Origin: Basidiobolus meristosporus CBS 931.73
Lineage: Eukaryota; Basidiobolomycota; Basidiobolomycetes; Basidiobolales; Basidiobolaceae
Reading direction: 5' to 3'
Length of the DNA: 64,000 bases
Assembly (NCBI GenBank): GCA_002104905.1
Contig: MCFE01000037.1
Coordinates: 140,378-204,377, forward strand
Both the position numbers and the translations under genes were made by a program. The notes below the pieces were generated by a model. It was not told the DNA's origin, ran no database searches, and worked only from the letters and a program-made list of their open reading frames with translations. Of the stretch, positions 6,114-64,000 are shown in pieces. Numbering within the stretch: position 1 is the stretch's first letter; the number at the start of each line of letters is the position of its first letter.

Positions 6114-7007
6114 TTACTGGCGGCGAGCAATGGTGGCGGTGATGTAGCCAGAGGGGTCACTGATGGGTTGGAAAATGTCCATGTCCTTGCCCTCGTTGGG
6201 GAGGTTGAAAGGTTTCAAGTTAACGCTGATGTAGTGCTTGTTGGGAAGAGCATAGCTGATCTCGGTGACATCCACATTCTCGGCCAAAACCTTCTCGCCC
6301 ATCTTGTACATGGTGGCTTGAACAGAGGCAGAGTCATCAGTGGCGAAGGTGCCGAGGGTGATTTCACGAACGCTGCCGGCGATCTCGTCGAAAGGAATCT
6401 CCTCGATCTTGGACTTCTCCAAGTTATAGGTCCATTTGGCATCGACACTGGTGGAGAAGATACGGTCGGTGGCATCTTGGAGAGTGGTATTCTCACAACG
6501 ATGGAAGTTGGTGAATGAGGAGCCGGTGGACTTCAACACAAGAAGGTCCTTGAGGCGAGACTCAATGGACACCTTTCCATCACGGGAGACAGTCAACTCA
6601 ACACGTCTGGTTTCGTCACCATCACGAAGGAAGGAGTGGGGGTGGAGTTGGCCATCGATGTTGACACGGGTCCAGCGGTGTTGGACGAGCTTGATGTATA
6701 CATGGTCAACATGGGAGTATCTGTTGATGAAGTGTTGGCCGATCTCGTAACCGAAACGCTCGATGGTTTGAACATTATCAGACTTCTTGGCAAGAACATA
6801 GACGGTGTTCTTGACAGTGTCAGTGGGGACGACAACTGAGTTGTCAGCCTCGGTGTAGGAGGTCTCGAACTTGCCATCGAGGAGGACTTGAGCGGTGAGC
6901 TCAATAACATCATGCCAGTTCTTGGTGTGACGGATGACCTTGGTGACGCGCACCTTGGTCTTACCGTAGGCTTGTTTCTTCAAGTAGGCACCAGAGTTAG
7001 CAGACAT
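6114..7007 (-). CDS. Urate oxidase (uricase), subfamily A, copy A1
   Basis: Uricase oxidises urate to 5-hydroxyisourate with O2, the committed step from purines to allantoin. The product has 297 residues and no introns. Against the well-studied Aspergillus flavus enzyme (K10, T57, F159, R176, Q228, H256), the subfamily-A equivalents are K16 (in YGK), T62 (VPTDT), F165 (SSF), R182 (DRI), Q230 (SVQATMY) and H258 (LPNKHY). All are present. The start at 7007 follows the paralogues; an upstream in-frame start at 7046 would add 13 residues. A TATA-like element lies at 7063-7070, about 60 nt upstream. This copy is the most distinct A gene (HVYIKLVQH, ENVDVTE) and has an extra C-terminal Gln (ARRQ). 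No PTS1 tripeptide is present. Confidence 0.95.
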   Translation of the reverse strand: MSANSGAYLKKQAYGKTKVRVTKVIRHTKNWHDVIELTAQVLLDGKFETSYTEADNSVVVPTDTVKNTVYVLAKKSDNVQTIERFGYEIGQHFINRYSHVDHVYIKLVQHRWTRVNIDGQLHPHSFLRDGDETRRVELTVSRDGKVSIESRLKDLLVLKSTGSSFTNFHRCENTTLQDATDRIFSTSVDAKWTYNLEKSKIEEIPFDEIAGSVREITLGTFATDDSASVQATMYKMGEKVLAENVDVTEISYALPNKHYISVNLKPFNLPNEGKDMDIFQPISDPSGYITATIARRQ

Positions 7008-7527
7008 AATGTTGGATAGAAGACTGACAATATTGCTCAACCCCAACTGAGAGAGTGGGGGGATTTATATGAATCGTTCGGTTTCACATCATTCTAGATA
7101 CTCTCATATCAACATCCATCTCTATTTTGGTGAAGATTCATCTTCGGCCAAGTTACACAGGCAGAAGCACGGAGATTGTGGGTACTTTAGATCTGCGCAG
7201 TACTGATAATCGATTCAATCTTGTGTCATTTCCCGCACCATCAATGAGAAATCTGCCTGTGTCCAGATAATCAATTCCATCGACCCTCGTGAACTGGATA
7301 ATTCTCTTTAGCCGTGGATGCACGCAAATCTGGTGACATAACCATGGCTAGGATATCTCCTGCAGTGTGTTGTTCCCATTTCCGAAATCCTTCTTCGAAC
7401 TCAGTATACTCATTGTGGTGGATATTGATATTGGATGCTGTATGAACATTAATTTATTTGCAACTTAGAGATCACAGTGAATGCATGCTTAATGGTAAGT
7501 TAGGGTTGTTCCAAAAACTTGGTCCGC
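7008..7527. promoter_or_regulatory. Upstream region of uricase A1
   Basis: 520-bp spacer between the B1 stop and the A1 start. The A1 TATA-like box is at 7063-7070. A TTCGGCC motif at 7143-7149 sits at nearly the same distance from the start as the CTCGGCC box of array 2. No other gene is seen. Confidence 0.5.
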
Positions 7528-8418
7528 TTAGAACTTGTTTCCACGACGACCAATGGTGGCAGTAATGTAGCCAGAGAAGTCGGTGACTGGAGAGAAAATG
7601 GTCATCTCTTGGCCAGCGTTGGGAAGGTTGAAGGGGGCAAGGTTGGTGGTGAAGTGATGGCTGTTGGGGAGTGCGTAGTACACATCACGGACTTCTGGGA
7701 AACGCTTCAAGATCAGCTCAGCCATGCGGTACATGGTGGCCTGGACTGAGGCAGAGTCATCATGGGCGAACACATCAAGGGTGGTCTTACGGACTCCATC
7801 GAAGATGCGGTCGAATGGAATGTTCTCGACTCCAATCGAGGTGTCAATGTTGTAGTGGGCCTTGACGGTAGTGGAGAAGATACGGTCATCAGCATCTTGG
7901 AGAGTGGTGTTCTCGCAGAGATGGAAGTTGGTGAAGGATGAGCCGGTGGTCTTCAAGACGAGAAGGCCTTCCAAGCCAGACTTGATGCTGACATCGTTGG
8001 CGCTGACAGTGACCCAGGTCTCTCTGGTCTCGCTGCCGTCACGGTAGAAGGAGTGAGGGTGGGGCTCGCCGTTGACATTGATTCTGGTCCAGCGGAGTTG
8101 AACAATGTGGACGTGGGCGTGGGTGACATGAGGGTACTTGTCAACGAAGTGCTTGCCGAGTTCGTAACCGTAACGCTCGATGGTCTGAACGTGGTTGGAC
8201 TTCTTGGCAATGATGTAGCAGGTGTTCTTGACAGTGTCGGTGGGGACGACCTTGCTGTTGTCAGCCTCGGTGTAAGCCTCTTCGAAGTCACCCTCGAGGA
8301 GCACTTGGACAGTGAGCTCGACAATGTCGTTCCACTGGGGAGTGTGGCGGATAGCCTTGGTGACTCTGACCTTAGCCTTACCGTAGGCTTGGCGTTTTAA
8401 CTCAACTGCAGAAGACAT
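7528..8418 (-). CDS. Urate oxidase, subfamily B, copy B1
   Basis: 296 residues, intronless. Subfamily B differs from A throughout (N-terminus VELKRQAYGK, LPNSHHF instead of LPNKHYF, C-terminus GNKF) but keeps the active-site set: K14, T60, F162, R179, Q226, N252 and H254. The full-length product and conserved catalytic residues argue for an active enzyme rather than a regulatory paralogue. TATA-like ATTTATA (plus strand) at 8474-8480, about 60 nt upstream of the ATG. Copy-specific residues: HLCENTT and DGVRKTT. Head-to-tail with A1 and A2. Confidence 0.95.
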   Translation of the reverse strand: MSSAVELKRQAYGKAKVRVTKAIRHTPQWNDIVELTVQVLLEGDFEEAYTEADNSKVVPTDTVKNTCYIIAKKSNHVQTIERYGYELGKHFVDKYPHVTHAHVHIVQLRWTRINVNGEPHPHSFYRDGSETRETWVTVSANDVSIKSGLEGLLVLKTTGSSFTNFHLCENTTLQDADDRIFSTTVKAHYNIDTSIGVENIPFDRIFDGVRKTTLDVFAHDDSASVQATMYRMAELILKRFPEVRDVYYALPNSHHFTTNLAPFNLPNAGQEMTIFSPVTDFSGYITATIGRRGNKF

Positions 8419-8983
8419 TGTTGTATACGATTGGAACTAGGAACACTAATTATGGTGGAGTTCGTATGAAGCAATTTATACAACTCACCGAGATGAAGCG
8501 TACCACTGTTCGAGCCAATCATGGTGATTGGCGGCATAATGAATCCCACTAGATAATAACGGTGTTTGGCTCTATCAGTAGCTGCTAGATCAGATTCGAG
8601 TGTTCATCTAATCTTTCTGTGAGTAATTACCATCTTGAGCAATAGCCTAGAAAACATTACACATGTTTCAGATTGTGATTAATCTGATGATGAAATCTGG
8701 GAGATTTGATTGGAATTGCTGGCCGCGTGATCCACTGAATATGGATTCCACGAGCAGAGGTAGAGTTGGTGTGGAGCGAGTGCTAATGGCAAGCATGAAT
8801 CGAGGCAATATCAATTCACAATGATAATCAAAAGTAGCCCATAGTCAAGACCACGTGGTGTGCTATCAACGCGTTTTACAATGGCAACCTTTCATCACTT
8901 TTTAGTCGGTTTTATTACGGATTGACCAGGTCAATCAATGTTAATGGATGGTAATGAAAATGATCGTGAATACATTTACACGG
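8419..8983. promoter_or_regulatory. Upstream region of uricase B1
   Basis: 565-bp spacer holding the B1 core promoter (TATA-like at 8474-8480) and, at its far end, the 3' untranslated region of A2. It shows no obvious similarity to the other spacers apart from the core promoter position. Confidence 0.45.
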
Positions 8984-9874
8984 TTAACGACGGGCAATAG
9001 TGGCAGTGATATAGCCAGATGGGTCACTGACAGGTTGGAAGATATCCATATCCTTGCCCTCGTTAGGAAGGTTGAAAGGCTTCAGGTTGACACTGAAGTA
9101 GTGCTTGTTGGGAAGAGCATAGCTGATCTCACTGACATCCTCAAAGCTGGCAAGAACCTTTTCGCCCATCTTGTACATGGTGGCTTGAACAGAGGCAGAG
9201 TTGTCAGTGGCGAAGGTGCTAAGTGTGATCTCACGAACACCCTCGGCAATTTCATCGAATGGAATCTCCTCAATCTTGGATTTATCAAGGTTGTACGTCC
9301 ACTTGGCATCGACGCTGGTGGAGAAAATACGGTCGGTGGCATCTTGGAGAGTGGTGTACTCGCAACGGTGGAAGTTGGTGAATGAAGACCCAGTGGACTT
9401 CAACACAAGAAGGTCCTTGAGGCGGGACTCAATGGATACCTTACCGTTACGGGAGACAGTCAACTCCACACGTCTGGTCTCATCACCATCACGAAGGAAG
9501 GAGTGGGGGTGGAGTTGACCGTCGATCTCAACACGGGTCCAGCGGTGTTGGATAAGCTTGATGTAGACATCATCAACATGAGAGTATCTGTTGATGAAGT
9601 GTTGACCAATCTCGTAACCGAAACGCTCGATGGTTTGAACTTGGTTGGACTTCTTGGCAAGGACATAGATGGTGTTCTTGACAGTGTCAGTGGGGACGAC
9701 AACTGAGTTGTCAGCCTCGGTGTAGGAGGTCTCGAACTTGCCATCGAGGAGGACTTGAGCGGTGAGCTCAATAACATCATGCCAGTTCTTGGTGTGACGG
9801 ATGACCTTTGTGAGGCGCACCTTGGTCTTACCGTAGGCTTGTTTCTTCAAGTAGGCACCAGATTTAGTAGACAT
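8984..9874 (-). CDS. Urate oxidase, subfamily A, copy A2
   Basis: 296 residues starting MSTKSGAYLKK. By inspection the product matches A3 (11770-12660) except at residues 3-4, so the two are very recent duplicates or have been converted. Unlike the other A copies they keep the Tyr of the uricase family signature (RCEYTTLQD, where others have RCENTTLQD). TATA-like TTTATATATA (plus strand) at 9934-9943, 60 nt upstream. The C-terminus is ATIARR, with no PTS1. Confidence 0.95.
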   Translation of the reverse strand: MSTKSGAYLKKQAYGKTKVRLTKVIRHTKNWHDVIELTAQVLLDGKFETSYTEADNSVVVPTDTVKNTIYVLAKKSNQVQTIERFGYEIGQHFINRYSHVDDVYIKLIQHRWTRVEIDGQLHPHSFLRDGDETRRVELTVSRNGKVSIESRLKDLLVLKSTGSSFTNFHRCEYTTLQDATDRIFSTSVDAKWTYNLDKSKIEEIPFDEIAEGVREITLSTFATDNSASVQATMYKMGEKVLASFEDVSEISYALPNKHYFSVNLKPFNLPNEGKDMDIFQPVSDPSGYITATIARR

Positions 9875-10394
9875 GATAGAGGAATGAGTAGAGAGAACCA
9901 GAACAGTAAATCTCAGTATCAGATCCCGCGGCCTTTATATATATCCCATTGGTGGTCGAACGTTTTGCCTCCATTGATTTATCTATCTAGATGAAAAGGA
10001 AAGTTCCCATGGTTTGGTTAAATCAGATCAGATCACTCTGCGTAGTCTGTTCTTCTCTAGGTGTGGTGGTGATTCTAGCCATGATTTTGGTGAGAACATC
10101 ACCTACGGTCTAGACTATACAAATCCAGACTGGAATAACACTCTGTCTTCAGTGTACCTCTTAATCAGCTTAACCAAAACAGCGGTAGAGTGATCCTCAT
10201 GTACCAATGCTATGGAACTGCGCGAAGAACCGGCTTACGTTATACAAAATGGATTGATCATATGTTTCTTGTTTTGATATAAGCATTGTTAGGTTTAAAG
10301 TATTTATTTACGCTGTTAAGGTTGGTCGGCTCTGACAATGGAGATTAGGATGCATGCGAAAAATCATGAGTGAATTCATTAATAATGTTTTCGT
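9875..10394. promoter_or_regulatory. Upstream region of uricase A2
   Basis: 520-bp spacer with the A2 TATA-like box at 9934-9943. Not alignable by eye with the A3 spacer, although the two proteins are almost identical. Confidence 0.45.
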
Positions 10395-11285
10395 TTAGAA
10401 TTTGTTTCCACGACGACCAATGGTGGCAGTGATGTAGCCAGAGAAGTCGGTGACTGGAGAGAAAATGGTCATCTCTTGGCCAGCGTTGGGAAGGTTGAAG
10501 GGGGCAAGGTTGGTGGTGAAGTGATGGCTGTTGGGGAGTGCGTAGTACACATCACGGACTTCTGGGAAACGCTTCAAGATCAGCTCAGCCATGCGGTACA
10601 TGGTGGCCTGGACTGAGGCGGAGTCATCGTGAGCGAACACATCAAGGGTGGTCTTGCGGACTCCTTCAAAGATGCGGTCGAATGGAATGTTCTCGACTCC
10701 AATCGAGGTGTCAATGTTGTAGTGGGCCTTGACAGTGGTGGAGAAGATACGGTCATCAGCATCTTGGAGAGTGGTGTTCTCGCAGTGATGGAAGTTGGTG
10801 AAGGATGAGCCGGTGGTCTTCAAGACGAGAAGGCCTTCCAAGCCAGACTTGATGCTGACATCGTTGGCGCTGACAGTGACCCAGGTCTCTCTGGTCTCGC
10901 TGCCGTCACGGTAGAAGGAGTGAGGGTGAGGCTCGCCGTTGACATTGATTCTGGTCCAGCGGAGTTGAACAATGTGGACGTTAGCGTGGGTGACATGAGG
11001 GTACTTGTCAACGAAGTGCTTGCCGAGTTCGTAACCGTAACGCTCGATGGTCTGAACGTGGTTGGACTTCTTGGCAATGATGTAGCAGGTGTTCTTGACA
11101 GTGTCGGTGGGGACGACCTTGCTGTTGTCAGCCTCGGTGTAAGCCTCTTCGAAGTCACCCTCGAGGAGCACTTGGACAGTGAGCTCGACAATGTCGTTCC
11201 ACTGGGGAGTGTGGCGGATAGCCTTGGTGACTCTGACCTTAGCCTTACCGTAGGCTTGGCGTTTTAACTCAACTGCAGAAGACAT
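10395..11285 (-). CDS. Urate oxidase, subfamily B, copy B2
   Basis: 296 residues from the ATG at 11285. An upstream in-frame start at 11363 would prepend 26 residues absent from all other copies and would include the TATA region (11338-11344), so it is rejected. It differs from B1 at only a few positions (HANVHIV for HAHVHIV, HHCENTT, EGVRKTT). Active-site residues are as in B1. The C-terminus is GRRGNKF. Confidence 0.95.
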   Translation of the reverse strand: MSSAVELKRQAYGKAKVRVTKAIRHTPQWNDIVELTVQVLLEGDFEEAYTEADNSKVVPTDTVKNTCYIIAKKSNHVQTIERYGYELGKHFVDKYPHVTHANVHIVQLRWTRINVNGEPHPHSFYRDGSETRETWVTVSANDVSIKSGLEGLLVLKTTGSSFTNFHHCENTTLQDADDRIFSTTVKAHYNIDTSIGVENIPFDRIFEGVRKTTLDVFAHDDSASVQATMYRMAELILKRFPEVRDVYYALPNSHHFTTNLAPFNLPNAGQEMTIFSPVTDFSGYITATIGRRGNKF

Positions 11286-24250: not shown

Positions 24251-25142
24251 TCAACGACGGGCAATGGTGGCAGTGATATAGCCAGATGGATCACTGATGG
24301 GTTGGAAGATGTTCATGTCCTTGCCTTCGTTGGGGAGGTTGAAGGGCTTCAAGTTGACGCTGAGGTAGTGCTTGTTGGGAAGAGCATAGCTGATCTCGCT
24401 GACATCCACGTTCTGTCCCAACACCTTCTCACCCATTTGGTACATGGTGGCTTGCACCGAGGCTGAGTCATCGGTGGCGAAGGTGCTGAGGGTGATCTCA
24501 CGAACGCTGCTGGCGATCTCGTCGAATGGAATCTCCTCGATCTTGGACTTCTCAAGGTTGTAGGTCCACTTGGCATCCACACTGGTGGAGAAGATGCGGT
24601 CGGTGGCATCCTGGAGAGTGGTGTTCTCACAACGGTGGAAGTTGGTGAATGAGGAGCCGGTGGACTTCAACACAAGGAGGTCCTTGAGGCGGGACTCGAT
24701 GGACACCTTTCCATCACGAGAGACAACCAGCTCAACACGTCTGGTCTCATCACCGTCACGGAGGAAGGAGTGCGGGTGGAGCTGGCCATCGATCTCAACG
24801 CGGGTCCAGCGGTGCTGGATGAGCTTGATGTAGACGTCATCGACATGAGAGTATCTGTTGATGAAGTGTTGACCAATCTCGTAGCCGAAACGCTCGATGG
24901 TCTGGACATTCTCGGACTTCTTGGCGAGGACATAGAGGGTGTTCTTGACAGTAGTCAGTGGGGACAACGACAGAGTTGTCAGCCTCGGTGTAGGAGGTCT
25001 CGAACTTGCCATCGAGGAGAACTTGAGCGGTGAGCTCGACAACATCATGCCAGTTCTTGGTGTGGCGGATGACCTTGGTGATGCGAACCTTGGTCTTGCC
25101 ATAGGCTTGCTTCTTCAAGTAGGCACCGGAGTTACTAGACAT
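24251..25142 (-). pseudogene. Urate oxidase subfamily A, copy A4, one frameshift
   Basis: Full-length A copy (start at 25142, MSSNSGAYLKK) of 892 nt instead of 891. One extra base lies near 24953, in the VPTDTVKN codons (about residue 63), where the other copies read GACAGTGTC or GACAGTATC and this one reads GACAGTAGTC. Translation would terminate soon after residue 62. The rest of the frame is open and near-identical to A5-A8. TATA-like TTTATATATA (plus strand) at 25197-25206 is intact. It is either a young pseudogene or a sequencing error. Confidence 0.9.
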
Positions 25143-25653: not shown

Positions 25654-26545
25654 ATGTCATCCTTCGTTGAACTAAAACGTCAAGCTTACGGTAAAGCCAA
25701 GGTCAGAGTGCACCAAGGCCATCCGCCACACCGCCTAGTACAACGACATTCGTTGAGCTCACTTGCCAAGTCCTTCTCGAGGGTGACTTCGAAGAGGCTT
25801 ACACCAAGGCTGACAACAGCATGGTTGTCCCCACTGACACTGTCAAGAACACCTGCTACGTCATTGCCAAGAAGTCCGACCATGTTCAGACCATCGAACG
25901 TTATGCTACGAGCTTGGCAAGCACTTCGTTGACAAGTACTCCCATGTCACCCATGCTCATGTGCACATTGTCAAGTACCGCTGGGCCAGAATCAATGTCA
26001 ACGGCGAGCCCCACCCTCACTCCTTCTACCGTGACGGCAGCGAGACCAGAGAGACCTGGGTCACAGTCAGTGCGAACGATGTCAGCATCAAGTCTGGCTT
26101 GGAAGGCCTCCTTGTGTTGAAGACCACCGGCTCGTCCTTCACCAACTTCCATCACTGCGAGAACACCACTCTCCAAGATGCTGATGACCGTATCTTCTCC
26201 ACCACTGTCAAGGCCCACTACAACATCGACACCTCGATTGGAGTCGAGAACATTCCATTCGACCGCATCTTTGAAGGAGTCCGCAAGACCACCCTGGATG
26301 TGTTCGCTCACGATGACTCTGCCTCAGTCCAGGCCACCATGTACCTCATGGGTGATGTGATCTTGAAACGCTATCCCGAAGTTCAGGATGTGTACTACGC
26401 CCTCCCCAACAGCCATCATTTCACCACTAACCTCGAGCCATTCAACCTTCCTAACTCCGGCCGAGAGATGACTATTTTCTCACCCATTACCGACTTCTCG
26501 GGGTACATTACTGCTACGATTGGTCGGCGTGGTAACAAGTTCTAA
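25654..26545 (+). pseudogene. Urate oxidase subfamily B, copy B4, multiply disrupted
   Basis: Starts MSSFVELKRQ at 25654. Lesions relative to intact B genes: +1 near 25708 (GTCAGAGTGCACC), a CAG-to-TAG nonsense change near 25737, +1 near 25752, and -1 near 25903 (TATGCTACG). From 25961 the frame is open to the normal stop. The last ~200 bp (from about 26345) is clearly diverged from the other B copies (YLMGDVILKRYPEVQ, LEPFNLPNSGREM) while the first two-thirds is near-identical to them. That suggests a conversion tract ending inside the gene. Confidence 0.92.
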
Positions 26546-27007: not shown

Positions 27008-27898
27008 TTAACGACGAGCAATGGTAGCAGTGATATAGCCAGATGGATCACTGATGGGTTGGAAGATGTTCATGTCCTTGCCTTCGTTGGGAAGGTTGAA
27101 GGGCTTCAAGTTGACGCTGAGGTAGTGCTTGTTGGGAAGAGCATAGCTGATCTCGCTGACATCCACGTTCTGTCCCAACACCTTCTCACCCATTTGGTAC
27201 ATGGTGGCTTGCACCGAGGCTGAGTCATCGGTGGCGAAGGTGCTGAGGGTGATCTCACGAACGCTGTTGGCGATCTCGTCGAATGGAATCTCCTCGATCT
27301 TGGACTTCTCAAGGTTGTAGGTCCACTTGGCATCCACGCTGGTGGAGAAGATGCGGTCGGTGGCATCCTGGAGAGTGGTGTTCTCACAACGGTGGAAGTT
27401 GGTGAATGAGGAGCCGGTGGACTTCAACACAAGGAGATCCTTGAGGCGGGACTCGATGGACACCTTTCCATCACGAGAGACAACCAGCTCAACACGTCTG
27501 GTCTCATCACCGTCACGGAGGAAGGAGTGCGGGTGGAGCTGGCCATCGATCTCAACGCGGGTCCAGCGGTGCTGGATGAGCTTGATGTAGACGTCATCGA
27601 CATGAGAGTATCTGTTGATGAAGTGTTGACCAATCTCGTAGCCGAAACGCTCGATGGTCTGGACATTCTCGGACTTCTTGGCGAGGACATAGAGGGTGTT
27701 CTTGACAGTATCGGTGGGGACAACGACAGAGTTGTCAGCCTCGGTGTAGGAGGTCTCGAACTTGCCATCGAGGAGAACTTGAGCGGTGAGCTCGACAACA
27801 TCATGCCAGTTCTTGGTGTGGCGGATGACCTTGGTGATGCGAACCTTGGTCTTGCCATAGGCTTGCTTCTTCAAATAGGCACTGGAAGTGTTGGACAT
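27008..27898 (-). CDS. Urate oxidase, subfamily A, copy A5
   Basis: Intact, 296 residues, starting MSNTSSAYLKK. Catalytic residues as listed for A1. Array-2 A signatures: RITKVIRH, ELVVSRDGK, GQNVDVSE, MYQMGEKVL. This copy uniquely has NSVREIT. Its 3' flank (about 26990-27007) and 5' leader resemble those of A6, marking the two as the closest pair. TATA-like TTATATA (plus strand) at 27963-27969, 65 nt upstream. Confidence 0.95.
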   Translation of the reverse strand: MSNTSSAYLKKQAYGKTKVRITKVIRHTKNWHDVVELTAQVLLDGKFETSYTEADNSVVVPTDTVKNTLYVLAKKSENVQTIERFGYEIGQHFINRYSHVDDVYIKLIQHRWTRVEIDGQLHPHSFLRDGDETRRVELVVSRDGKVSIESRLKDLLVLKSTGSSFTNFHRCENTTLQDATDRIFSTSVDAKWTYNLEKSKIEEIPFDEIANSVREITLSTFATDDSASVQATMYQMGEKVLGQNVDVSEISYALPNKHYLSVNLKPFNLPNEGKDMNIFQPISDPSGYITATIARR

Positions 27899-28415: not shown

Positions 28416-29306
28416 ATGTCTGCATCTGTTGAGTTGAAGCGCCAAGCCTATGGTAAAGCCAAGGTCAGAGTCACCAAGGCCATTCGCCACACCGCCCAAT
28501 ACAACGACATCGTTGAGCTCACTTGCCAAGTCCTTCTCGAGGGTGACTTCGAAGAGGCTTACACCAAGGCTGACAACAGCATGGTTGTCCCCACTGACAC
28601 TGTCAAGAACACCTGCTACGTCATTGCCAAGAAGTCCGACCATGTTCAGACCATCGAGCGTTATGCCTACGAGCTCGGCAAGCACTTCGTTGACAAGTAC
28701 ACCCATGTCACCCATGCTCATGTGCACATTGTCAAGTACCGCTGGGCCAGAATCAATGTCAACGGCGAGCCCCACCCTCACTCCTTCTACCGCGATGGTA
28801 GTGAGACCAGAGAGACCTGGGTCACAGTCAGTGCGAACGATGTCAGCATCAAGTCTGGCTTGGAAGGCCTCCTTGTGTTGAAGACCACCGGCTCGTCCTT
28901 CACCAACTTCCATCGCTGCGAGAACACCACTCTCCAAGATGCTGATGACCGTATCTTCTCCACCACTGTCAAGGCCCACTACAACATCGACACCTCGGTT
29001 GGAGTCGAGAACATTCCATTCGACCGCATCTTTGAAGGAGTCCGCAAGACCACCCTTGATGTGTTCGCCCACGATGACTCTGCCTCAGTCCAGGCCACCA
29101 TGTACCGCATGGCTGAGTTGATCTTGAAGCGCTTCCCAGAAGTCCGTGATGTGTACTACGCCCTCCCCAACAGCCATCACTTCACCACCAACCTTGCCCC
29201 CTTCAACCTCCCGAATGCTGGCCAAGAGATGACCATTTTCTCCCCAGTCACCGACTTCTCTGGATACATTACTGCTACCATTGGTCGTCGTCGCAGCAAC
29301 TTCTAA
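28416..29306 (+). CDS. Urate oxidase, subfamily B, copy B5
   Basis: Intact, 296 residues, starting MSASVELKRQ at the ATG 28416. Array-2 B signatures: RHTAQYND, YTKADNSMVV, HIVKYRWARI. Catalytic residues K14, T60, F162, R179, Q226 and H254 are present. It is unusual in ending RRRSNF where other B copies end in NKF or TKF. Polyadenylation signal AATAAA at 29339-29344, about 33 nt past the stop. Confidence 0.95.
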   Translation: MSASVELKRQAYGKAKVRVTKAIRHTAQYNDIVELTCQVLLEGDFEEAYTKADNSMVVPTDTVKNTCYVIAKKSDHVQTIERYAYELGKHFVDKYTHVTHAHVHIVKYRWARINVNGEPHPHSFYRDGSETRETWVTVSANDVSIKSGLEGLLVLKTTGSSFTNFHRCENTTLQDADDRIFSTTVKAHYNIDTSVGVENIPFDRIFEGVRKTTLDVFAHDDSASVQATMYRMAELILKRFPEVRDVYYALPNSHHFTTNLAPFNLPNAGQEMTIFSPVTDFSGYITATIGRRRSNF

Positions 29307-30764: not shown

Positions 30765-31656
30765 TTAACGACGAGCAATGGTAGCAGTAATATAGCCAGA
30801 TGGATCACTGATGGGTTGGAAGATATTCATGTCCTTGCCTTCGTTGGGGAGGTTGAAGGGCTTCAAGTTGACGCTGAGGTAGTGCTTGTTGGGAAGAGCA
30901 TAGCTGATCTCGCTGACATCCACGTTCTGTCCCAACACCTTCTCACCCATTTGGTACATGGTAGCTTGCACCGAGGCTGAGTCATCGGTGGCGAAGGTGC
31001 TGAGGGTGATCTCACGAACGCTGCTGGCGATCTCGTCGAATGGAATCTCCTCGATCTTGGACTTCTCAAGGTTGTAGGTCCACTTGGCATCCACACTGGT
31101 GGAGAAGATGCGGTCGGTGGCGTCCTGGAGAGTGGTGTTCTCACAACGGTGGAAGTTGGTGAATGATGAGCCGGTGGACTTCAACACAAGGAGGTCCTTG
31201 AGGCGGGACTCGATGGACACCTTTCCATCACGAGAGACAACCAGCTCAACACGTCTGGTCTCATCACCGTCACGGAGGAAGGAGTGCGGGTGGAGCTGGC
31301 CATCGATCTCAACGCGGGTCCAGCGGTGCTGGATGAGCTTGATGTAGACATCATCGACATGAGAGTATCTGTTGATGAAGTGTTGACCAATCTCGTAGCC
31401 GAAACGCTCGATGGTCTGGACATTCTCGGACTTCTTGGCGAGGACATAGAGGGTGTTCTTGACAGTGTCAGTGGGGACAACGACAGAGTTGTCAGCCTCG
31501 GTGTAGGAGGTCTCGAACTTGCCATCGAGGAGGACTTGAGCGGTGAGCTCGACAACATCGTGCCAGTTCTTAGTGTGGCGGATGATCCTTGGTGATGCGA
31601 ACCTTGGTCTTGCCATAGGCTTGCTTCTTCAAATAGGCACTGGAAGTGTTGGACAT
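30765..31656 (-). pseudogene. Urate oxidase subfamily A, copy A6, one frameshift
   Basis: Start at 31656 (MSNTSSAYLKK). One extra T near 31586 (plus strand GATGATCCTTGG where the other copies read GATGACCTTGG) shifts the frame at about residue 23, next to the conserved RHTKNW segment. The rest is open and near-identical to A5. TATA-like TTATATA (plus strand) at 31721-31727 is retained. The lesion is very early, so no functional product is expected. Confidence 0.9.
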
Positions 31657-32177: not shown

Positions 32178-33068
32178 ATGTCTGCCTCTGTTCAATTAAA
32201 ACGTCAAGCCTATGGTAAAGCCAAGGTCAGAGTCACCAAGGCCATCCGCCACACCGCCCAATACAACGACATTGTCGAGCTCACTTGCCAAGTCCTTCTC
32301 GAGGGTGACTTCGAAGAGGCTTACACCAAGGCTGACAACAGCATGGTTGTCCCCACTGACACTGTCAAGAACACCTGCTACGTCATTGCCAAGAAGTCCG
32401 ACCATGTTCAGACCATCGAACGTTATGCCTACGAGCTCGGCAAGCACTTCGTTGACAAGTACTCCCATGTCACCCATGCTCATGTGCACATTGTCAAGTA
32501 CCGCTGGGCCAGAATCAATGTCAACGGCGAGCCCCACCCTCACTCCTTCTACCGTGACGGCAGCGAGACCAGAGAGACCTGGGTCACGGTCAGTGCGAAC
32601 GATGTCAGCATCAAGTCTGGCTTGGAAGGCCTTCTTGTGTTAAAGACCACCGGCTCGTCCTTCACCAACTTCCATCACTGCGAGAACACCACTCTCCAAG
32701 ACGCTGATGACCGTATCTTCTCCACCACTGTCAAGGCCCACTACAACATCGACACCTCGATTGGAGTCGAGAACATTCCATTCGACCGCATCTTTGAAGG
32801 AGTCCGCAAGACCACCCTGGATGTGTTCGCCCACGATGACTCTGCCTCAGTCCAGGCCACCATGTACCGCATGGCTGAGCTGATCTTGAAGCGCTTCCCA
32901 GAAGTCCGTGATGTGTACTACGCCCTCCCCAACAGCCATCACTTCACCACCAACCTTGCCCCCTTCAACCTCCCTAACGCTGGCCAAGAGATGACCATTT
33001 TCTCCCCTGTTACTGACTTCTCTGGATACATCACCGCAACCATTGGTCGTCGTGGCAACAAATTCTAA
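32178..33068 (+). CDS. Urate oxidase, subfamily B, copy B6
   Basis: Intact, 296 residues, starting MSASVQLKRQ (Gln where other B copies have Glu). It has YSHVTH rather than YTHVTH, which it shares with the relic B9, and the standard GRRGNKF end. Core promoter about 60 nt upstream. Its last ~60 nt uses codons different from B5 and B8 (for example GTTACTGAC), so it has been converted less recently at the 3' end. Confidence 0.95.
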   Translation: MSASVQLKRQAYGKAKVRVTKAIRHTAQYNDIVELTCQVLLEGDFEEAYTKADNSMVVPTDTVKNTCYVIAKKSDHVQTIERYAYELGKHFVDKYSHVTHAHVHIVKYRWARINVNGEPHPHSFYRDGSETRETWVTVSANDVSIKSGLEGLLVLKTTGSSFTNFHHCENTTLQDADDRIFSTTVKAHYNIDTSIGVENIPFDRIFEGVRKTTLDVFAHDDSASVQATMYRMAELILKRFPEVRDVYYALPNSHHFTTNLAPFNLPNAGQEMTIFSPVTDFSGYITATIGRRGNKF

Positions 33069-33928: not shown

Positions 33929-34819
33929 TTAACGACGAGCAATGGTAGCAGTGATATAGCCAGATGGATCACTGATGGGTTGGAAGATGTTCATGTCCTT
34001 GCCTTCGTTGGGGAGGTTGAAGGGCTTCAAGTTGACGCTGAGGTAGTGCTTGTTGGGAAGAGCATAGCTGATCTCGCTGACATCCACGTTCTGTCCCAAC
34101 ACCTTCTCACCCATTTGGTACATGGTGGCTTGCACCGAGGCTGAGTCATCGGTGGCGAAGGTGCTGAGGGTGATCTCACGAACGCTGCTGGCGATCTCGT
34201 CGAATGGAATCTCCTCGATCTTGGACTTCTCAAGGTTGTAGGTCCACTTGGCATCCACACTGGTGGAGAAGATGCGGTCGGTGGCATCCTGGAGAGTGGT
34301 GTTCTCACAACGGTGGAAGTTGGTGAATGATGAGCCGGTGGACTTCAACACAAGGAGATCCTTGAGGCGGGACTCGATGGACACCTTTCCATCACGAGAG
34401 ACAACCAGCTCAACACGTCTGGTCTCATCACCGTCACGGAGGAAGGAGTGCGGGTGGAGCTGGCCATCGATCTCAACGCGGGTCCAGCGGTGCTGGATGA
34501 GCTTGATGTAGACGTCATCGACATGAGAGTATCTGTTGATGAAGTGTTGGCCAATCTCGTAGCCGAAACGCTCGATGGTCTGGACATTCTCGGACTTCTT
34601 GGCGAGGACATAGAGGGTGTTCTTGACAGTGTCAGTGGGGACAACGACAGAGTTGTCAGCCTCGGTGTAGGAGGTCTCGAACTTGCCATCGAGGAGAACT
34701 TGAGCGGTGAGCTCGACAACATCATGCCAGTTCTTGGTGTGGCGGATGACCTTGGTGATGCGAACCTTGGTCTTGCCATAGGCTTGCTTCTTCAAGTAGG
34801 CACCGGAAGTGTTGGACAT
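33929..34819 (-). CDS. Urate oxidase, subfamily A, copy A7
   Basis: Intact, 296 residues, starting MSNTSGAYLKK, otherwise nearly the array-2 consensus (SSVREIT). The core promoter is weaker than in its sisters: only a TATTTAA-type element at 34868-34874, about 50 nt upstream. The 3' flank is shared with A8. Confidence 0.95.
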   Translation of the reverse strand: MSNTSGAYLKKQAYGKTKVRITKVIRHTKNWHDVVELTAQVLLDGKFETSYTEADNSVVVPTDTVKNTLYVLAKKSENVQTIERFGYEIGQHFINRYSHVDDVYIKLIQHRWTRVEIDGQLHPHSFLRDGDETRRVELVVSRDGKVSIESRLKDLLVLKSTGSSFTNFHRCENTTLQDATDRIFSTSVDAKWTYNLEKSKIEEIPFDEIASSVREITLSTFATDDSASVQATMYQMGEKVLGQNVDVSEISYALPNKHYLSVNLKPFNLPNEGKDMNIFQPISDPSGYITATIARR

Positions 34820-35300: not shown

Positions 35301-36192
35301 ATGTCTGGAGCTGTTGAGTTGAAGCGTCAAGCCTATGGTAAAGCCAAGGTCAGAGTCACCAAGGCCATTCGCCACACCGCCCAGTACAACGACATCGTTG
35401 AGCTCACTTGCCAAGTCCTTCTCGAGGGTGACTTCGAAGAGGCTTACACCAAGGCTGACAACAGCATGGTTGTCCCCACTGACACTGTCAAGAACACCTG
35501 CTACGTCATTGCCAAGAAGTCCGACCATGTTCAGACCATCGAGCGTTATGCTTACGAGCTCGGCAAGCACTTCGTTGACAAGTACACCCATGTCACCCAT
35601 GCTCATGTGCACATTGTCAAGTACCGCTGGGCCAGAATCAATGTCAACGGCGAGCCCCACCCTCACTCCTTCTACCGTGACGGCAGCGAGACCAGAGAGA
35701 CCTGGGTCACAGTCAGTGCGAACGATGTCAGCATCAAGTCTGGCTTGGAAGGCCTTCTTGTGTTGAAGACCACCGGTTCGTCCTTCACCAACTTCCATCA
35801 CTGCGAGAACACCACTCTCCAAGACGCTGATGACCGTATCTTCTCCACCACTGTCAAGGCCCACTACAACATCGACACCTCGATTGGAGTCGAGAACATT
35901 CCATTCGACCGCATCTTCGACGGAGTCCGCAAGACCACCCTTGGATGTGTTCGCTCACGATGACTCTGCCTCAGTCCAGGCCACCATGTACCGCATGGCT
36001 GAGTTGATCTTGAAGCGCTTCCCAGAAGTCCGTGATGTGTACTACGCCCTCCCCAACAGCCATCACTTCACCACCAACCTTGCCCCCTTCAGCCTCCCTA
36101 ACGCTGGCCAAGAGATGACCATTTTCTCCCCAGTCACCGACTTCTCTGGATACATTACTGCTACCATTGGCCGTTGTAACACCAAATTCTAA
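35301..36192 (+). pseudogene. Urate oxidase subfamily B, copy B7, one frameshift
   Basis: Start at 35301 (MSGAVELKRQ). One extra G near 35943 (CTTGGATGTG instead of CTTGATGTG) shifts the frame at about residue 214, just before Q226 and H254, so both catalytic residues would be lost. The remaining frame is open and ends GRCNTKF, a variant C-terminus not seen elsewhere. Everything else, including the TATA-like box, is intact. Confidence 0.9.
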
Positions 36193-36712: not shown

Positions 36713-37600
36713 TTAACGACGGGCAATGGTGGCAGTGATATAGCCAGATGGATCACTGATGGGTTGGAAGATGTTCATGTCCTTGCCTTCGTTGGGAAGG
36801 TTGAAGGGCTTCAAGTTGACGCTGAGGTAGTGCTTGTTGGGAAGAGCATAGCTGATCTCGCTGACATCCACGTTCTGTCCCAACACCTTCTCACCCATTT
36901 GGTACATGGTGGCTTGCACCGAGGCTGAGTCATCGGTGGCGAAGGTGCTGAGGGTGATCTCACGAACGCTGCTGGCGATCTCGTCGAATGGAATCTCCTC
37001 GATCTTGGACTTCTCAAGGTTGTAGGTCCACTTGGCATCCACACTGGTGGAGAAGATGCGGTCAGTGGCATCCTGGAGAGTGGTGTTCTCACAACGGTGG
37101 AAGTTGGTGAATGAGGAGCCGGTGGACTTCAACACAAGGAGGTCCTTGAGGCGGGACTCGATGGACACCTTTCCATCACGAGAGACAACCAGCTCAACAC
37201 GTCTGGTCTCATCACCGTCACGGAGGAAGGAGTGCGGGTGGAGCTGGCCATCGATCTCAACGCGGGTCCAGCGGTGCTGGATGAGCTTGATGTAGACATC
37301 ATCGACATGAGAGTATCTGTTGATGAAGTGTTGACCAATCTCGTAACCGAAACGCTCGATGGTCTGGACATTCTCGGACTTCTTGGCGAGGACATAGAGG
37401 GTGTTCTTGACAGTGTCGGTGGGGACAACGACAGAGTTGTCAGCCTCGGTGTAGGAGGTCTCGAACTTGCCATCGAGGAGGACTTGAGCGGTGAGCTCGA
37501 CAACATCGTGCCAGTTCTTAGTGTGGCGGATGACCTTGGTGATGCGAACCTTGGTCTTGCCATAGGCTTGTTTCTTCAAGTAAGCAACGGAATTAGGCAT
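36713..37600 (-). CDS. Urate oxidase, subfamily A, copy A8
   Basis: Intact, 295 residues. The N-terminus MPNSVAYLKK is one residue shorter than in the other A copies, so catalytic positions shift by -1. TATA-like CTATTTATA (plus strand) at 37653-37661, about 57 nt upstream. The rest matches the array-2 A consensus. Confidence 0.95.
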   Translation of the reverse strand: MPNSVAYLKKQAYGKTKVRITKVIRHTKNWHDVVELTAQVLLDGKFETSYTEADNSVVVPTDTVKNTLYVLAKKSENVQTIERFGYEIGQHFINRYSHVDDVYIKLIQHRWTRVEIDGQLHPHSFLRDGDETRRVELVVSRDGKVSIESRLKDLLVLKSTGSSFTNFHRCENTTLQDATDRIFSTSVDAKWTYNLEKSKIEEIPFDEIASSVREITLSTFATDDSASVQATMYQMGEKVLGQNVDVSEISYALPNKHYLSVNLKPFNLPNEGKDMNIFQPISDPSGYITATIARR

Positions 37601-38106
37601 AACTTTATGATTACAAGAGTTCAGTCAATGTGGTATGGTAGGCATCCAGTTCCTATTTATAGATATTGACCGCTTCCCTCATAACGGTAATGGTCGTCTT
37701 CCGGATTCCTCAATAACAACCTGAGTCTCGGCCTTTCTTATCTCCAGTAAATTCAGGAACCGGGGCCTGATGATGGTAACACATACACTTTATTCTGTTG
37801 CACCATTCAAGTTTGAAAGTCGGTCTGAGCTTCAGTCTGCGTAACCGATTATTTGAAAATGTATAAAAACTTCATCTCGGAGGTTTTCTGTACCACAATC
37901 CAGTTGGACATGCCGATCCTAAATAGTCAAATCTCATCTTGATGAATCTCTTGGTATCATCAAATATTCTGTGCAAAGCCTGGATTCTTGAGCAATCATA
38001 ATTGCGTGTCTATTGCAAAGCTAATGTAATAATGCTGGTCTTAATAGTATAAAAGCGCTCTATCAACCAACATTATAGGTCAGAAACCTTGAGTGGAAGT
38101 ACAAGA
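37601..38106. promoter_or_regulatory. Divergent promoter of uricase pair A8/B8
   Basis: 506 bp. TATA boxes at 37653-37661 (A8) and 38048-38055 (TATAAAAG, B8). CTCGGCC at 37727-37733. It lacks the TTCTCAGG/AGATCAACT stretch of the pairs at 27899 and 31657. Confidence 0.6.
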
Positions 38107-38997
38107 ATGTCAGGTTCAGTAGAGTTGAAGCGTCAAGCCTATGGTAAAGCCAAGGTCAGAGTGACCAAGGCCATCCGCCACACCGCCCAGTACAACGACA
38201 TCGTTGAGCTCACTTGCCAAGTCCTTCTCGAGGGTGACTTCGAAGAGGCTTACACCAAGGCTGACAACAGCATGGTTGTCCCCACTGACACTGTCAAGAA
38301 CACCTGCTACGTCATTGCCAAGAAGTCCGACCATGTTCAGACCATCGAACGTTATGCCTACGAGCTCGGCAAGCACTTCGTTGACAAGTACACCCATGTC
38401 ACCCATGCTCATGTGCACATTGTCAAGTACCGCTGGGCCAGAATCAATGTCAACGGCGAGCCCCACCCTCACTCCTTCTACCGTGACGGCAGCGAGACCA
38501 GAGAGACCTGGGTCACAGTCAGTGCGAACGATGTCAGCATCAAGTCTGGCTTGGAAGGCCTTCTTGTGTTGAAGACCACCGGTTCGTCCTTCACCAACTT
38601 CCATCACTGCGAGAACACCACTCTCCAAGACGCTGATGACCGTATCTTCTCCACCACTGTCAAGGCCCACTACAACATCGACACCTCGATTGGAGTCGAG
38701 AACATTCCATTCGACCGCATCTTCGACGGAGTCCGCAAGACCACCCTTGATGTGTTCGCTCACGATGACTCTGCCTCAGTCCAGGCCACCATGTACCGCA
38801 TGGCTGAGTTGATCTTGAAGCGCTTCCCAGAAGTCCGTGATGTGTACTACGCACTCCCCAACAGCCATCACTTCACCACCAACCTTGCCCCCTTCAACCT
38901 CCCTAACGCTGGCCAAGAGATGACCATTTTCTCCCCAGTCACCGACTTCTCTGGATACATTACTGCTACCATTGGCCGTCGTAGGAACAAATTCTAG
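38107..38997 (+). CDS. Urate oxidase, subfamily B, copy B8
   Basis: Intact, 296 residues, starting MSGSVELKRQ at the ATG 38107, ending RRRNKF with a TAG stop (most others use TAA). It is closest to B7 (shared DGVRKTT, YTHVTH and 3' codon usage). It has the best TATA box of the array (TATAAAAG). It is the last intact uricase before the decayed distal part. Confidence 0.95.
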   Translation: MSGSVELKRQAYGKAKVRVTKAIRHTAQYNDIVELTCQVLLEGDFEEAYTKADNSMVVPTDTVKNTCYVIAKKSDHVQTIERYAYELGKHFVDKYTHVTHAHVHIVKYRWARINVNGEPHPHSFYRDGSETRETWVTVSANDVSIKSGLEGLLVLKTTGSSFTNFHHCENTTLQDADDRIFSTTVKAHYNIDTSIGVENIPFDRIFDGVRKTTLDVFAHDDSASVQATMYRMAELILKRFPEVRDVYYALPNSHHFTTNLAPFNLPNAGQEMTIFSPVTDFSGYITATIGRRRNKF

Positions 38998-39486
38998 TTC
39001 CATCATTGCCTCTGTAAATTTATTTATTAAATATTCACATACTTGACGTGACAGCCAATCTTTTTGCATTAATGTGATGATTATTTTTTAGTTTTCGGGT
39101 ATTCATTAAACTGTTGGTAGTCCTGGGTTTACCCATATAGTGAAGAACCGGTCTACTGAAATGTGAATATAGCTTGCTACGTTACACAAGTTTACATGTA
39201 TTATAAGCTATAGCACTTCATATTGCCGTACACCAATGTTAACTTTTTAACTGCTCGGCACTTCTAGATGCTACCGCATTTGAAATCTATAGAGTGTTTT
39301 CCTCAAATCCTTGGAAGTAATGCTGAAAATTTGGATTTTCGGTTTTCCAGGGATGTAAAATCTGGATTGTCCATTTTCCAATACATTCGTGTCAATCACA
39401 ATTCAAACAAACCTTGTGGCAAAGTAGATTTACGACTTCGTTCGAATGCTTGCTAATCGTTAATGTTTATGTTGGATTCTGTCAAT
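38998..39486. other. Spacer between B8 and relic A9
   Basis: 489 bp, AT-rich, with the B8 3' end. No gene is recognised. Confidence 0.5.
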
Positions 39487-39681
39487 TTACCGACAGACGA
39501 TAGTAGCAGCGATGTGGCCGGAAGGATCACTGATGGGCCGGAAGTGCTCACGTCCCTGAGCTTGCCATCAAGGAGGACTTGAGCAGTGAGCTCGACAACA
39601 TCATGCCAGTTCTTGGTGTGGCGGATGACCTTAGTGATGCGAACCTTGGTCTTACCATAGGCATTTGCAGGAGTTGGACAA
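39487..39681 (-). pseudogene. Urate oxidase subfamily A relic, copy A9, large internal deletion
   Basis: About 195 bp. The first ~70 bp corresponds to the A-gene C-terminus (ending ATIVCR, stop at 39487-39489). The remainder corresponds to the A-gene N-terminal ~50 codons. About 690 bp is missing at a junction near 39558. The start codon is degraded (plus-strand CAA where CAT is expected). It keeps its place in the A(-)/B(+) pairing with the next relic. Confidence 0.85.
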
Positions 39682-40210
39682 GTTTGTATAGCTGATGCGG
39701 ATCAGAAATTGAAACCCGAGAAGCACATCAACATTGACAATTGGGCTCTTATATTTTTGCCGACAATACTGACAACTATCAATGTACCCAAGTCTTAGAA
39801 ATTCAGTGAGCCTGGACTATCTTCATAGACGAATAACGTTGTGGGTAAGGCAACAATTTTGTTCACAACTCCTAATACTGTAGATCCTATATATCTTAAA
39901 TACCGTAAAGCTATATGTATGCTATCATAAGGTGGCCTACTTAGACATAGGACCTAGGGTAGCTTTCAGAATCTAATTGCTTTCATACTGACAATTGACC
40001 AGATCTAATCTAATTGTCGACATGTCAGGGTGTAGGAATAATTTTGCAAAATCTGTAATTCTTGGGAATTAAGATTCAAGATATAGCATGAGCGTATATC
40101 AGGTTTGCGCTTGCCTATCAGTGGCGAGTCTCATGCCCTAAGGTTTGGAAATTAATGTCCTACAAGTGGCGGTTCAATTATTATCTCCCTTTCTGAAGCC
40201 TTGAAATTGA
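39682..40210. other. Former divergent promoter between relics A9 and B9
   Basis: 529 bp, the usual divergent-spacer length, but no clear TATA box or CTCGGCC box at the expected positions. No gene. Confidence 0.4.
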
Positions 40211-41063
40211 ATGTCTGATTCGGTTGGTAAAGCCAAGGTCATCCGCCACACTGCCCAATACAACGACGTTGTCGAGCTCACTTGCCAGGTGCTTCTCGAG
40301 GGCGACTTCGAAGAGGCTTACACCAAGGCTGACAACAGCATGGTTGTCCCCACTGACACTGTCAAGAACACCTGCTACGTCATTGCCAAGAAGTCCGACC
40401 ATGTTCAGACCATCGAGCGTTATGCTTACGAGCTTGGCAAGCACTTCGTTGACAAGTACTCTCATGTCACCCATGCTCATGTGCACATTGTCAAGTACCG
40501 CTGGACCAGAATTAACATCAATGGCGAGCTTCACCCTCACTCCTTCTACCGTGACGGCAGTGAGACCAGAGAGACCTGGGTCACAGTCAGTGCGAACGAT
40601 GTCAGCATCAAGTCTGGCTTGGAAGGCCTTCTTGTGTTGAAGACCACCGGCTCGTCCTTCACCAGCTGCCATCACTGTGAGAACACCACTCTCCAAGACG
40701 CTGATGGCCGTATCTTCTCCACCACTGTCAAGGCCCATTACAACATCGACACCTCGATTGGAGTCGAGAACATTCCCTTCGACCGCATCTTTGAAGGAGT
40801 CCGCAAGACCACCCTGGATGTGTTCGCTCACGATGACTCTGCCTCAGTCCAGGCCACCATGTACCGCATGGCTGAGTTGATCTTGAAGCGTTTCCCAGAA
40901 GTCTGTGATGTGTACTACGCACTCCCCAACAGCCATCACTTCACCACCAACCTTGCCCCTTCAACCTCCCTAACGCTGGCCAAGAGATGGCCATTTTCTC
41001 CACTGTAACTGATTTCTCTAGCTATATCACTGCTACCATTGTTCGTCGTGGTAACAAGTTTCA
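40211..41063 (+). pseudogene. Urate oxidase subfamily B relic, copy B9
   Basis: B homology from the ATG at 40211. Two short in-frame deletions remove the ELKRQAY and RVTKA segments near the N-terminus. The frame then stays open to about 40958, where one C is missing (GCCCCTTC for GCCCCCTTC) and the C-terminus goes out of frame. The normal stop is lost (AAGTTTCAA instead of AAGTTCTAA). Non-conservative changes include TSCHHC and ADGRIF. Not functional. Confidence 0.9.
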
Positions 41064-41079
41064 ATTTTCATCAGTGCCT

Positions 41080-41130
41080 GCCTTCTCTGATTAGATAACC
41101 GTCACAATTGGCCGCCACTACCCCGTATTC
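41080..41130 (+). pseudogene. Extra 3'-terminal fragment of a subfamily-B uricase
   Basis: About 50 bp resembling the last codons of a B gene (CTTCTCTG...ACCGTCACAATTGGCCGCC), directly after relic B9, with an internal TAG. It indicates a second, mostly lost B copy beside the telomeric junction. Short, so moderate confidence. Confidence 0.5.
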
Positions 41131-41165
41131 GGTCATCATAAAATACGACTGGTTCGCCTCACATT

Positions 41166-41192
41166 TTAGGGTTAGGGTAACCCTAACCCTAA
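41166..41192. repeat. Head-to-head interstitial telomeric junction
   Basis: Two TTAGGG units run directly into two-and-a-half CCCTAA units, giving a 27-bp near-perfect palindrome with its centre at 41179. This is the arrangement expected where two chromosome ends were joined. It lies inside the uricase array, with relics in opposite orientation on either side. Confidence 0.85.
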
Positions 41193-41229
41193 GCATAAAA
41201 TTTGAGGTTGAGCAAAAAACTTCCATGAC

Positions 41230-41475
41230 TTATAGTTTGTTTCCCCCACGACCAATGATGGGGGTGAAGTAACCCAAGATGTCAGTAATGGGTGAGGAGA
41301 TGACTATTTAGGAATGGTGTCTATTGGGGAGAGCATAGTACACATCATGGACTTCGGGGAAGTACAAGAACAACTCAGCCAGGCGGTACATGGTGGCCTG
41401 GACTGAGGCAGAGTCATCATGAGCGAACACATCCAAGGTGGTCTTGCAGACACCTTCAAAGATACAGTGGAATAG
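41230..41475 (-). pseudogene. Urate oxidase subfamily B fragment (C-terminal third), mirror orientation
   Basis: Minus-strand B homology from the stop (41230-41232; ending GNKL rather than GNKF) to about the IFEGV segment. Internal indels lie near 41300-41320, with several substitutions. Opposite orientation to every B gene of array 2. Confidence 0.85.
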
Positions 41476-41498
41476 GATGAGTAATCCCTGATACCAGA

Positions 41499-41704
41499 GC
41501 TGACACGATGTTATTGAGCTCACCGCTCAAGTCCTCCTCGATGGCAAGTTCGAGACTTCCTACACCGAGGCTGACACCTCTGTCGTTGTCCCCACTGACA
41601 CTGTCAAGAACACCCTCTATGTCCTCGCCCAGAAGGCCGAGAATGTCCAGACCATCGAGCGTTTCGGCTACGAGATTGGTCAACACTTCATCAACAGATA
41701 CTCT
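41499..41704 (+). pseudogene. Urate oxidase subfamily A fragment (N-terminal part), mirror orientation
   Basis: Plus-strand A homology covering roughly residues 31-98 (from HDVIELTAQ to INRYS), open in frame, with small changes such as ADTSVVV and AQKAENV. All other A genes here are on the minus strand. Ends abruptly at 41704. Confidence 0.85.
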
Positions 41705-54967: not shown

Positions 54968-54980
54968 GGGTTAGGGGGGG

Positions 54981-63832: not shown

Positions 63833-64000
63833 TTAGGGTTAGGGTTAGGGTTAGGGTTAGGGTTAGGGTTAGGGTTAGGGTTAGGGTTAGGGTTAGGGTT
63901 AGGGTTAGGGTTAGGGTTAGGGTTAGGGTTAGGGTTAGGGTTAGGGTTAGGGTTAGGGTTAGGGTTAGGGTTAGGGTTAGGGTTAGGGTTAGGGTTAGGG
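63833..64000 (+). repeat. Terminal telomere (TTAGGG)28
   Basis: 168 bases of uninterrupted TTAGGG repeats to the window end, G-rich strand running 5'->3' outward, as at a true right-hand chromosome end. Confidence 0.98.

Follow-up and report, generated by a model that had tools for sequence, protein, structure and literature searches.

Uricases with known structure give the closest comparison for the genes described here, above all the enzyme of Aspergillus flavus (PDB 1r56, 6rgt, 3gko). We analysed a stretch of 64,000 nucleotides of Basidiobolus meristosporus CBS 931.73 (C613:140378-204377; hereafter the window), which lies at the telomeric end of contig C613 and carries two arrays of uricase genes belonging to two classes, A and B. 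Like the A. flavus enzyme, the Basidiobolus proteins have the Uricase domain (PF01014), about 296 amino acids, the same predicted fold and the same eight active-site residues; unlike it, they occur as 26 open copies in two paralogous classes, of which A lacks a type 1 peroxisomal targeting signal (PTS1) and B has an unusual tail and a phenylalanine at position 284. Other fungal uricases without a PTS1, such as that of Schizosaccharomyces pombe, also stop after the last conserved strand with no SKL, but division into A and B classes was seen only in Basidiobolus among the 63 rows of our tree. The cysteine-rich uricase of reptiles and birds has likewise lost its PTS1, but, according to the part of that report consulted (PMC10517255), through an unrelated animal event that involved an extra C-terminal peptide. 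Finally, as in concerted evolution by gene conversion, paralogues within a cluster are mostly closer to each other than to copies in other clusters; the Basidiobolus case differs in that homogeneity ends near the ends of the open reading frames (ORFs), between spacers that are mostly unrelated and of even length.

The strain was isolated from gecko dung in Ivory Coast (PMC7466969, in the part consulted), and uric acid is the form in which birds and reptiles excrete nitrogen (PMC10517255, likewise). A search of open-licence papers in PMC found none in which Basidiobolus is mentioned alongside uricase or urate oxidase, and the consulted parts of two papers that combine Basidiobolus with uric acid or allantoin terms (PMC6308229, PMC8778642) hold no report of the array. 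We consider it fairly probable, from the sequence evidence below, that the arrays amplify the dose of urate oxidase for life on urate-rich excreta, and that conversion keeps the array ORFs uniform. Such a system would link, in an early-diverging fungus, the niche of uric-acid-rich droppings to gene dosage, both at a single enzymatic step and over a route.

Uricase genes alternate strictly in two arrays

We mapped the loci in the window by tblastn with one A and one B protein, followed by reading of the ORFs (Table 1). The left array (6120-14092) has the order A1 B1 A2 B2 A3 B3, with all six genes open, on the minus strand and head-to-tail. In the right array (24254-41704), the pairs A4/B4 to A8/B8 (24254-38994) lie head-to-head, with A on the minus and B on the plus strand, and are followed by a 17th locus, B9, which is near full length and broken, and by smaller relics. 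Twelve of the 16 full-length loci are open (the others being A4, B4, A6 and B7), in agreement with the sequence-only reading, which had counted at least 16 full-length or near full-length loci, 12 intact, together with smaller relics. Two pairs, A6/B6 and A7/B7, combine one broken and one open partner. The same reading had described a strict A-B-A-B alternation, and this is true of all 16 full-length loci; for 8 A and 8 B genes, such an order has a probability of 1.6e-4 if the order is random, and it is expected if the A-B pair is the unit that was copied.

A public uricase record (P0010; window 6120-8418) reads as B1 at its start and as A1 at its end. We rejected it as a real B/A recombinant, since it fits a gene model that joins B1 and A1 and is most likely an annotation error, and we left it out of the tree.

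Both classes have the properties of uricases. The Pfam Uricase profile (PF01014) matches A3 (E=4.8e-73, 244.6 bits) and B3 (E=4.7e-67, 225.2 bits) far above the cut-off of 25, in two stretches each. AlphaFold2 models of these two proteins (mean predicted local distance difference test score 92.2 for A3 and 90.9 for B3) have the predicted fold of a uricase, and their best PDB matches are A. flavus uricase (template modelling score 0.92-0.94, 44-47% identity). At eight active-site positions whose catalytic or binding roles we assume (K10, T57, F159, R176, V227, Q228, N254 and H256, A. flavus numbering), the alignment shows no change in any of the 26 open copies of the genome, including the 12 open copies of the window for which such retention had been proposed. 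The ratio of nonsynonymous to synonymous divergence (dN/dS) is 0-0.28 in 29 of the 30 listed comparisons and exceeds 0.1 only where synonymous divergence (dS) is below 0.07; in the 30th, dS is saturated.

Uricase pairs are dispersed through the genome

A PF01014 profile search of the genome gave at least 78 matches, half-domains and pieces included, on 13 contigs; these counts are lower bounds, though all 87 of 87 candidates were scored. The open copies number 13 A and 13 B (26). We excluded contig C178 from the counts because it repeats window 2062-7815 (99.5% identical); moreover, C428 and C986, which are 95-99% alike across ~9.4 kb, may be alleles, and the count would then be 12 A and 12 B. 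Elsewhere in the genome, seven pairs are open and head-to-head (on C80, C510, C428, C986 and C680, and two on C479). C236, C222 and C489 each carry broken remains of an A and a B gene together, and C237 and C601 carry remains of one class only, A and B respectively. Every open copy adjoins a copy of the other class, although A7 and B6 each face a broken head-to-head partner. Telomere repeats are present in 3 of 17 contig-end pieces read at the other uricase loci (C428, C489 and C601); we make no claim that these loci are enriched in subtelomeres, since three telomeric pieces are too few and only part of the ends was read.

ORFs that resemble a DUF3472 gene adjoin the broken uricase pairs on C236 and C222 (L016 9107-9901; L018 8572-9900), which hints at copied segments; a DUF3472 protein with a chitin-binding domain also lies past the right array (window 48988-50403).

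Identity within the arrays is mostly confined to the ORFs

Within a cluster, the window ORFs are 96-99% identical (dS 0.03-0.14), with the exception of A1 (~90%, dS 0.45), and this likeness mostly stops at the gene. In the 300 bp upstream, 8 of 10 window comparisons fall within four percentage points of shuffled sequence, and A5/A7 and B5/B6 are 7-8 points above it. In the 300 bp downstream, nine window comparisons give 59-63% identity and A7/A8 gives 76%, relative to 59-61% for shuffled sequence, a baseline computed for the upstream regions only. When we compared the spacers with each other on both strands (120 pairs, 240 comparisons), z exceeded 5 in five comparisons, all in the right array. 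Gap lengths are 468-568 bp in 14 of 16 cases (window 7008-40225), regardless of orientation; we have no explanation for this evenness.

Since most spacers are unrelated, each copy is anchored separately, which argues strongly against both duplication by the assembler and recent tandem copying. Indeed, we find it hardly credible that one or two genes were multiplied in assembly: redundancy does exist (C178, as noted, and two contigs with xanthine dehydrogenase that are 99.9% alike), but most spacers are distinct and the assembly was made from PacBio reads (PMC7466969, in the part consulted). For most copies we likewise reject a recent tandem duplication in which a unit was copied along with its spacer. 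Because tandem copying would carry the spacers along, gene conversion confined to the ORF is the best reading of the arrays, and would keep their ORFs alike. With their near-identical ORFs and unrelated, evenly long spacers, the arrays allow the limits of such conversion to be measured.

Copies elsewhere have a different history. C428, C986 and C510 are alike well past the genes on both sides, with gaps, as ordinary segmental duplicates are. The two pairs on C479 (C479a and C479b) have ORFs that are 98-99% identical, an intergenic region that is 94-97% identical and unrelated 3' flanks. An origin of the copies from cDNA is not favoured, since the pairs keep their order and C479a and C479b share their intergenic region.

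Malate synthase has a comparable pattern. The genome has seven matches to this gene, on C425, C435 and C658; four copies within 11 kb (C425:23736-34609) are 98-99% alike over the ORF alone, though the alignment of two C435 copies with copies on C425 extends past the ORF, at 84-86%. These copies suggest that ORF-bounded homogenisation may be more general in this genome.

A and B are old classes that were copied as a pair

We built a tree of 63 hand-picked protein rows, all fungal (27 from the genome and 36 of the listed matches). All 34 Basidiobolus rows fall in one clade (support 100/99), in which an A clade (99/98) and a B clade (100/100) each include sequences of Basidiobolus ranarum, and the B stem (0.59) is longer than the A stem (0.18). 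Judged by this tree, A and B come from one duplication inside Basidiobolus, older than the split from B. ranarum. As to a possible bacterial origin, the tree covers fungi only, and those of the listed best matches of A and B that have names are fungal.

The distances among A copies match those among their partner B copies (Mantel r=0.98, n=10; with the deep groups C680 and C479 removed, r=0.79, exact p=0.0008, n=7), which indicates that the pair, and not the single gene, was copied. The A and B subtrees agree in outline and differ in some branches. Several clades follow the clusters (A2-A3, B1-B2-B3 and B5-B6-B8), but A1 (dS 0.45 to A2) is placed among the genes of the right array and the dispersed copies related to them, in contrast to B1, B2 and B3, which stay together. 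In the protein tree, A5, A7 and A8 are a grade, though they are 98-99% alike in DNA.

Copying of the pair as a unit gives a 1:1 ratio of A to B without selection for that ratio. Thus, the constant pairing does not bear out the suggestion made in the sequence-only reading, that the two proteins are needed together. We looked for complementary loss of catalytic or binding parts between A and B and found none at the eight sites, where both are complete; hence both halves of the active site are kept in each class and neither needs the other. The half-broken pairs A6/B6 and A7/B7 also speak against such a need, as do the B. ranarum models among the listed matches (five A-type and two B-type), in which A and B are not consecutive by locus tag, on contigs that are short (1.5-37 kb).

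B differs from A near the active site and at its C-terminus

Two changes, P284F and F79Y, are fixed in B at positions conserved in other fungi. Residue 284 is phenylalanine in B, where all 17 A rows and all 27 other rows have proline, and it lies close to G286 and I288, positions whose role in the enzyme we presume. Both neighbours of H256 are also altered in B, K255 in all 14 rows and Y257 in 11 of them. This residue table dropped six rows (B. ranarum 02224 and 18060, Funneliformis geosporum, Jimgerdemannia, Ambispora and the redundant C178 copy); its outgroup of 27 rows includes an A. flavus row that lacks the last residues, and counts of tails therefore use 26.

A canonical PTS1 tail is absent from all 17 A and all 14 B rows, whereas 19 of the 26 other named fungal uricase rows end in [KRH]L. 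Thirteen of the 14 B proteins end in [NT][KR][FI], at best a weak PTS1-like form, and one in SNF. Six of the seven malate synthase loci of this genome were read, and all six have the ending KL or RL; ordinary PTS1 import is therefore likely present, and the B tails NKF and NKI may not target.

Uricase active sites are built from two subunits, and A and B might thus form a mixed tetramer, in which pairing keeps the subunits in balance and B may supply what A lacks, be it a targeting tail or altered kinetics. The adjacency of every open copy to one of the other class would fit this arrangement, as would the contrast between tails and the lineage-wide changes P284F and F79Y; with the active site complete in each class, the 1:1 ratio already accounted for by pair-wise copying, the half-broken pairs and the B. 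ranarum models, we regard it as unlikely. Slightly less likely still is a fuller version, a two-component uricase in which A and B genes, neighbours and mostly head-to-head, give mixed tetramers, B tunes catalysis or import, and the pair is one unit homogenised in its ORFs, not its spacers, by ORF-bounded conversion, a habit of the genome shared with malate synthase. The two old classes lend themselves to the question of whether a textbook homotetramer can become a two-part enzyme.

The classes might instead have divided the work without mixing, as homotetramers of A and of B that differ in kinetics or compartment (A in the cytosol; B in the peroxisome or differently tuned). Differences of this kind are possible given the B changes near the active-site loop (P284F, K255, Y257) and the different C-terminus; the old split is retained in two species, and unique changes are more frequent in B than in A relative to Rhizophagus, Phycomyces and Glomus (nine comparisons, χ2 3.0-8.3, seven above 3.84). 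However, no difference in rate was found relative to Thamnocephalis (three comparisons), the eight core residues are unchanged, the shared divergent spacer suggests joint expression, and the B tails may not target. We put this division of roles on a level with the mixed tetramer, as a doubtful alternative. The sequences themselves require neither mixed tetramers nor separate roles for A and B.

Several steps of purine use are multicopy

The genome has only two nucleoside hydrolase (PF01156) loci besides redundant C178, and both are immediately to the left of the left array, where they are its purine-catabolism neighbours. In profile searches of the genome, C613 had no match to a permease, HIUase, allantoicase, urease, OHCU decarboxylase or xanthine dehydrogenase. 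Elsewhere, permeases (NAT) match at about 17 places, a count uncorrected for redundant contigs; in the part consulted, a survey lists 16 NAT members in this species relative to 2 on average in fungi (PMC6308229). Ureases occur at seven places (68-97% alike in the compared piece), xanthine dehydrogenase has five matches, four of them distinct, and allantoicase has five open, distinct copies (86% or less) and two broken ones. HIUase is found at three places, two of which have equal scores and are perhaps redundant, and OHCU decarboxylase at two; both steps also run spontaneously. Multiple copies thus mark several steps between uptake and ammonia, in a genome whose background favours other duplications too. 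Among the controls, CRM1 has one copy, malate synthase has seven, and the large-subunit domain of RNA polymerase gave four matches that are long and open, compared with an expected three polymerases.

The large uricase expansion that had been proposed for an organism of urate-rich excreta therefore stands, with a gecko-dung isolate in which other purine and urea steps are multicopy, and we have good grounds to infer that urate-rich excreta are used. In the course of events that we propose, an ancestral uricase would have duplicated in the Basidiobolus lineage to give A and B, which would have become a pair, mostly head-to-head with a short common upstream region; the pair would have been copied many times, partly into subtelomeric arrays, where gene conversion that stops near the ORF ends would keep the ORFs alike and purifying selection would hold A and B active and distinct. 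The output would be more urate oxidase to use the urate nitrogen of reptile and amphibian droppings, with extra permeases, xanthine dehydrogenase, allantoicase and urease acting alongside. Codon use gives a hint of high expression, limited to the array copies: the effective number of codons, computed for 14 of 27 copies, is 36-41 in six window copies relative to 45-57 in five neighbouring ORFs, a stronger bias in the uricases.

Several results weigh against this dose amplification with conversion. A test for conversion tracts, which covered 16 of the 26 copies, passes correction in one of 56 pairs (A1-A3, p=0.0015), and so gene conversion is something we only infer. A5, A7 and A8 do not form a clade, and dispersed copies (C80, C510, C428 and C986) nest among them. 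Across eight dispersed copies the effective number of codons is 36.5-58.3, and four of these values fall inside the reference ORF range or exceed it. With regard to shared regulation, GATA sites (HGATAR) are not enriched in the 12 divergent spacers (32 vs 25.5 +/- 5.1); two counts of a UaY-like pattern in the same spacers are one palindromic site. Lastly, malate synthase is also present in seven copies, four with similar ORF-limited identity, so that amplification is not peculiar to urate and is partly a habit of this genome.

This last result raises the question of a mostly neutral origin, by random amplification through recombination and conversion, with uricase as one of many genes affected. 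Broken uricase copies are common, and the relics on C489 and C601 are on contigs that end in telomere repeats, as such an origin would allow. Nevertheless, CRM1, which lies between the arrays, stays single, dN/dS is low among the open copies, and the multicopy steps belong to one route in which HIUase and OHCU decarboxylase are not much multiplied. We therefore consider a neutral origin improbable, and continue to favour dose amplification.

Features around the arrays

Genes for Anamorsin and CRM1/exportin sit between the arrays, the latter single-copy in the genome. The arrays were correctly described as subtelomeric, since TTAGGG repeats close the contig 22 kb past the right array.

Table 1. 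Positions of uricase loci and other features in the window
Feature	Position	Strand	Basis or remark
Second nucleoside hydrolase (PF01156), cut by window start	1..1095	-	profile match
Amino-acid-transporter-type protein (PF01490), between the nucleoside hydrolases	2850..3908	+	profile match
Nucleoside hydrolase (PF01156), two match pieces	4477..5612	-	profile match
Uricase A1, open, 297 aa	6120..7007	-	tblastn + ORF reading
Uricase B1, open, 296 aa	7531..8418	-	tblastn + ORF reading
Uricase A2, open, 296 aa	8987..9874	-	tblastn + ORF reading
Uricase B2, open, 296 aa	10398..11285	-	tblastn + ORF reading
Uricase A3, open, 296 aa	11773..12660	-	tblastn + ORF reading; AlphaFold2 model
Uricase B3, open, 296 aa	13205..14092	-	tblastn + ORF reading; AlphaFold2 model
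Uricase A4, full length, frame broken	24254..25142	-	tblastn
Uricase B4, full length, frame broken	25654..26542	+	tblastn
Uricase A5, open	27011..27898	-	tblastn + ORF reading
Uricase B5, open, head-to-head with A5	28416..29303	+	tblastn + ORF reading
Uricase A6, frame broken near N-terminus	30768..31656	-	tblastn
Uricase B6, open	32178..33065	+	tblastn + ORF reading
Uricase A7, open	33932..34819	-	tblastn + ORF reading
Uricase B7, frame broken	35301..36189	+	tblastn
Uricase A8, open	36716..37600	-	tblastn + ORF reading
Uricase B8, open	38107..38994	+	tblastn + ORF reading
A-type relic	39507..39662	-	tblastn
Uricase B9, near full length, broken	40226..41061	+	tblastn
B-type relic	41233..41478	-	tblastn
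B-type and A-type relics, overlapping (41432-41701, 41504-41704)	41432..41704	+	tblastn
Telomere repeat TTAGGG x28	63833..64000	+	end of C613

ORFs for reverse transcriptases, of the non-LTR (long terminal repeat) type by their look, extend up to the telomere (window 53431-63685), and within this region there are a 155-bp satellite (window 55758-56385) and an exact 286-bp tandem duplication (window 62667-63236). Across the whole assembly, telomere 24-mers number 7428 in forward and 81 in reverse orientation; contigs seem to be telomere-ended mainly at the plus end.

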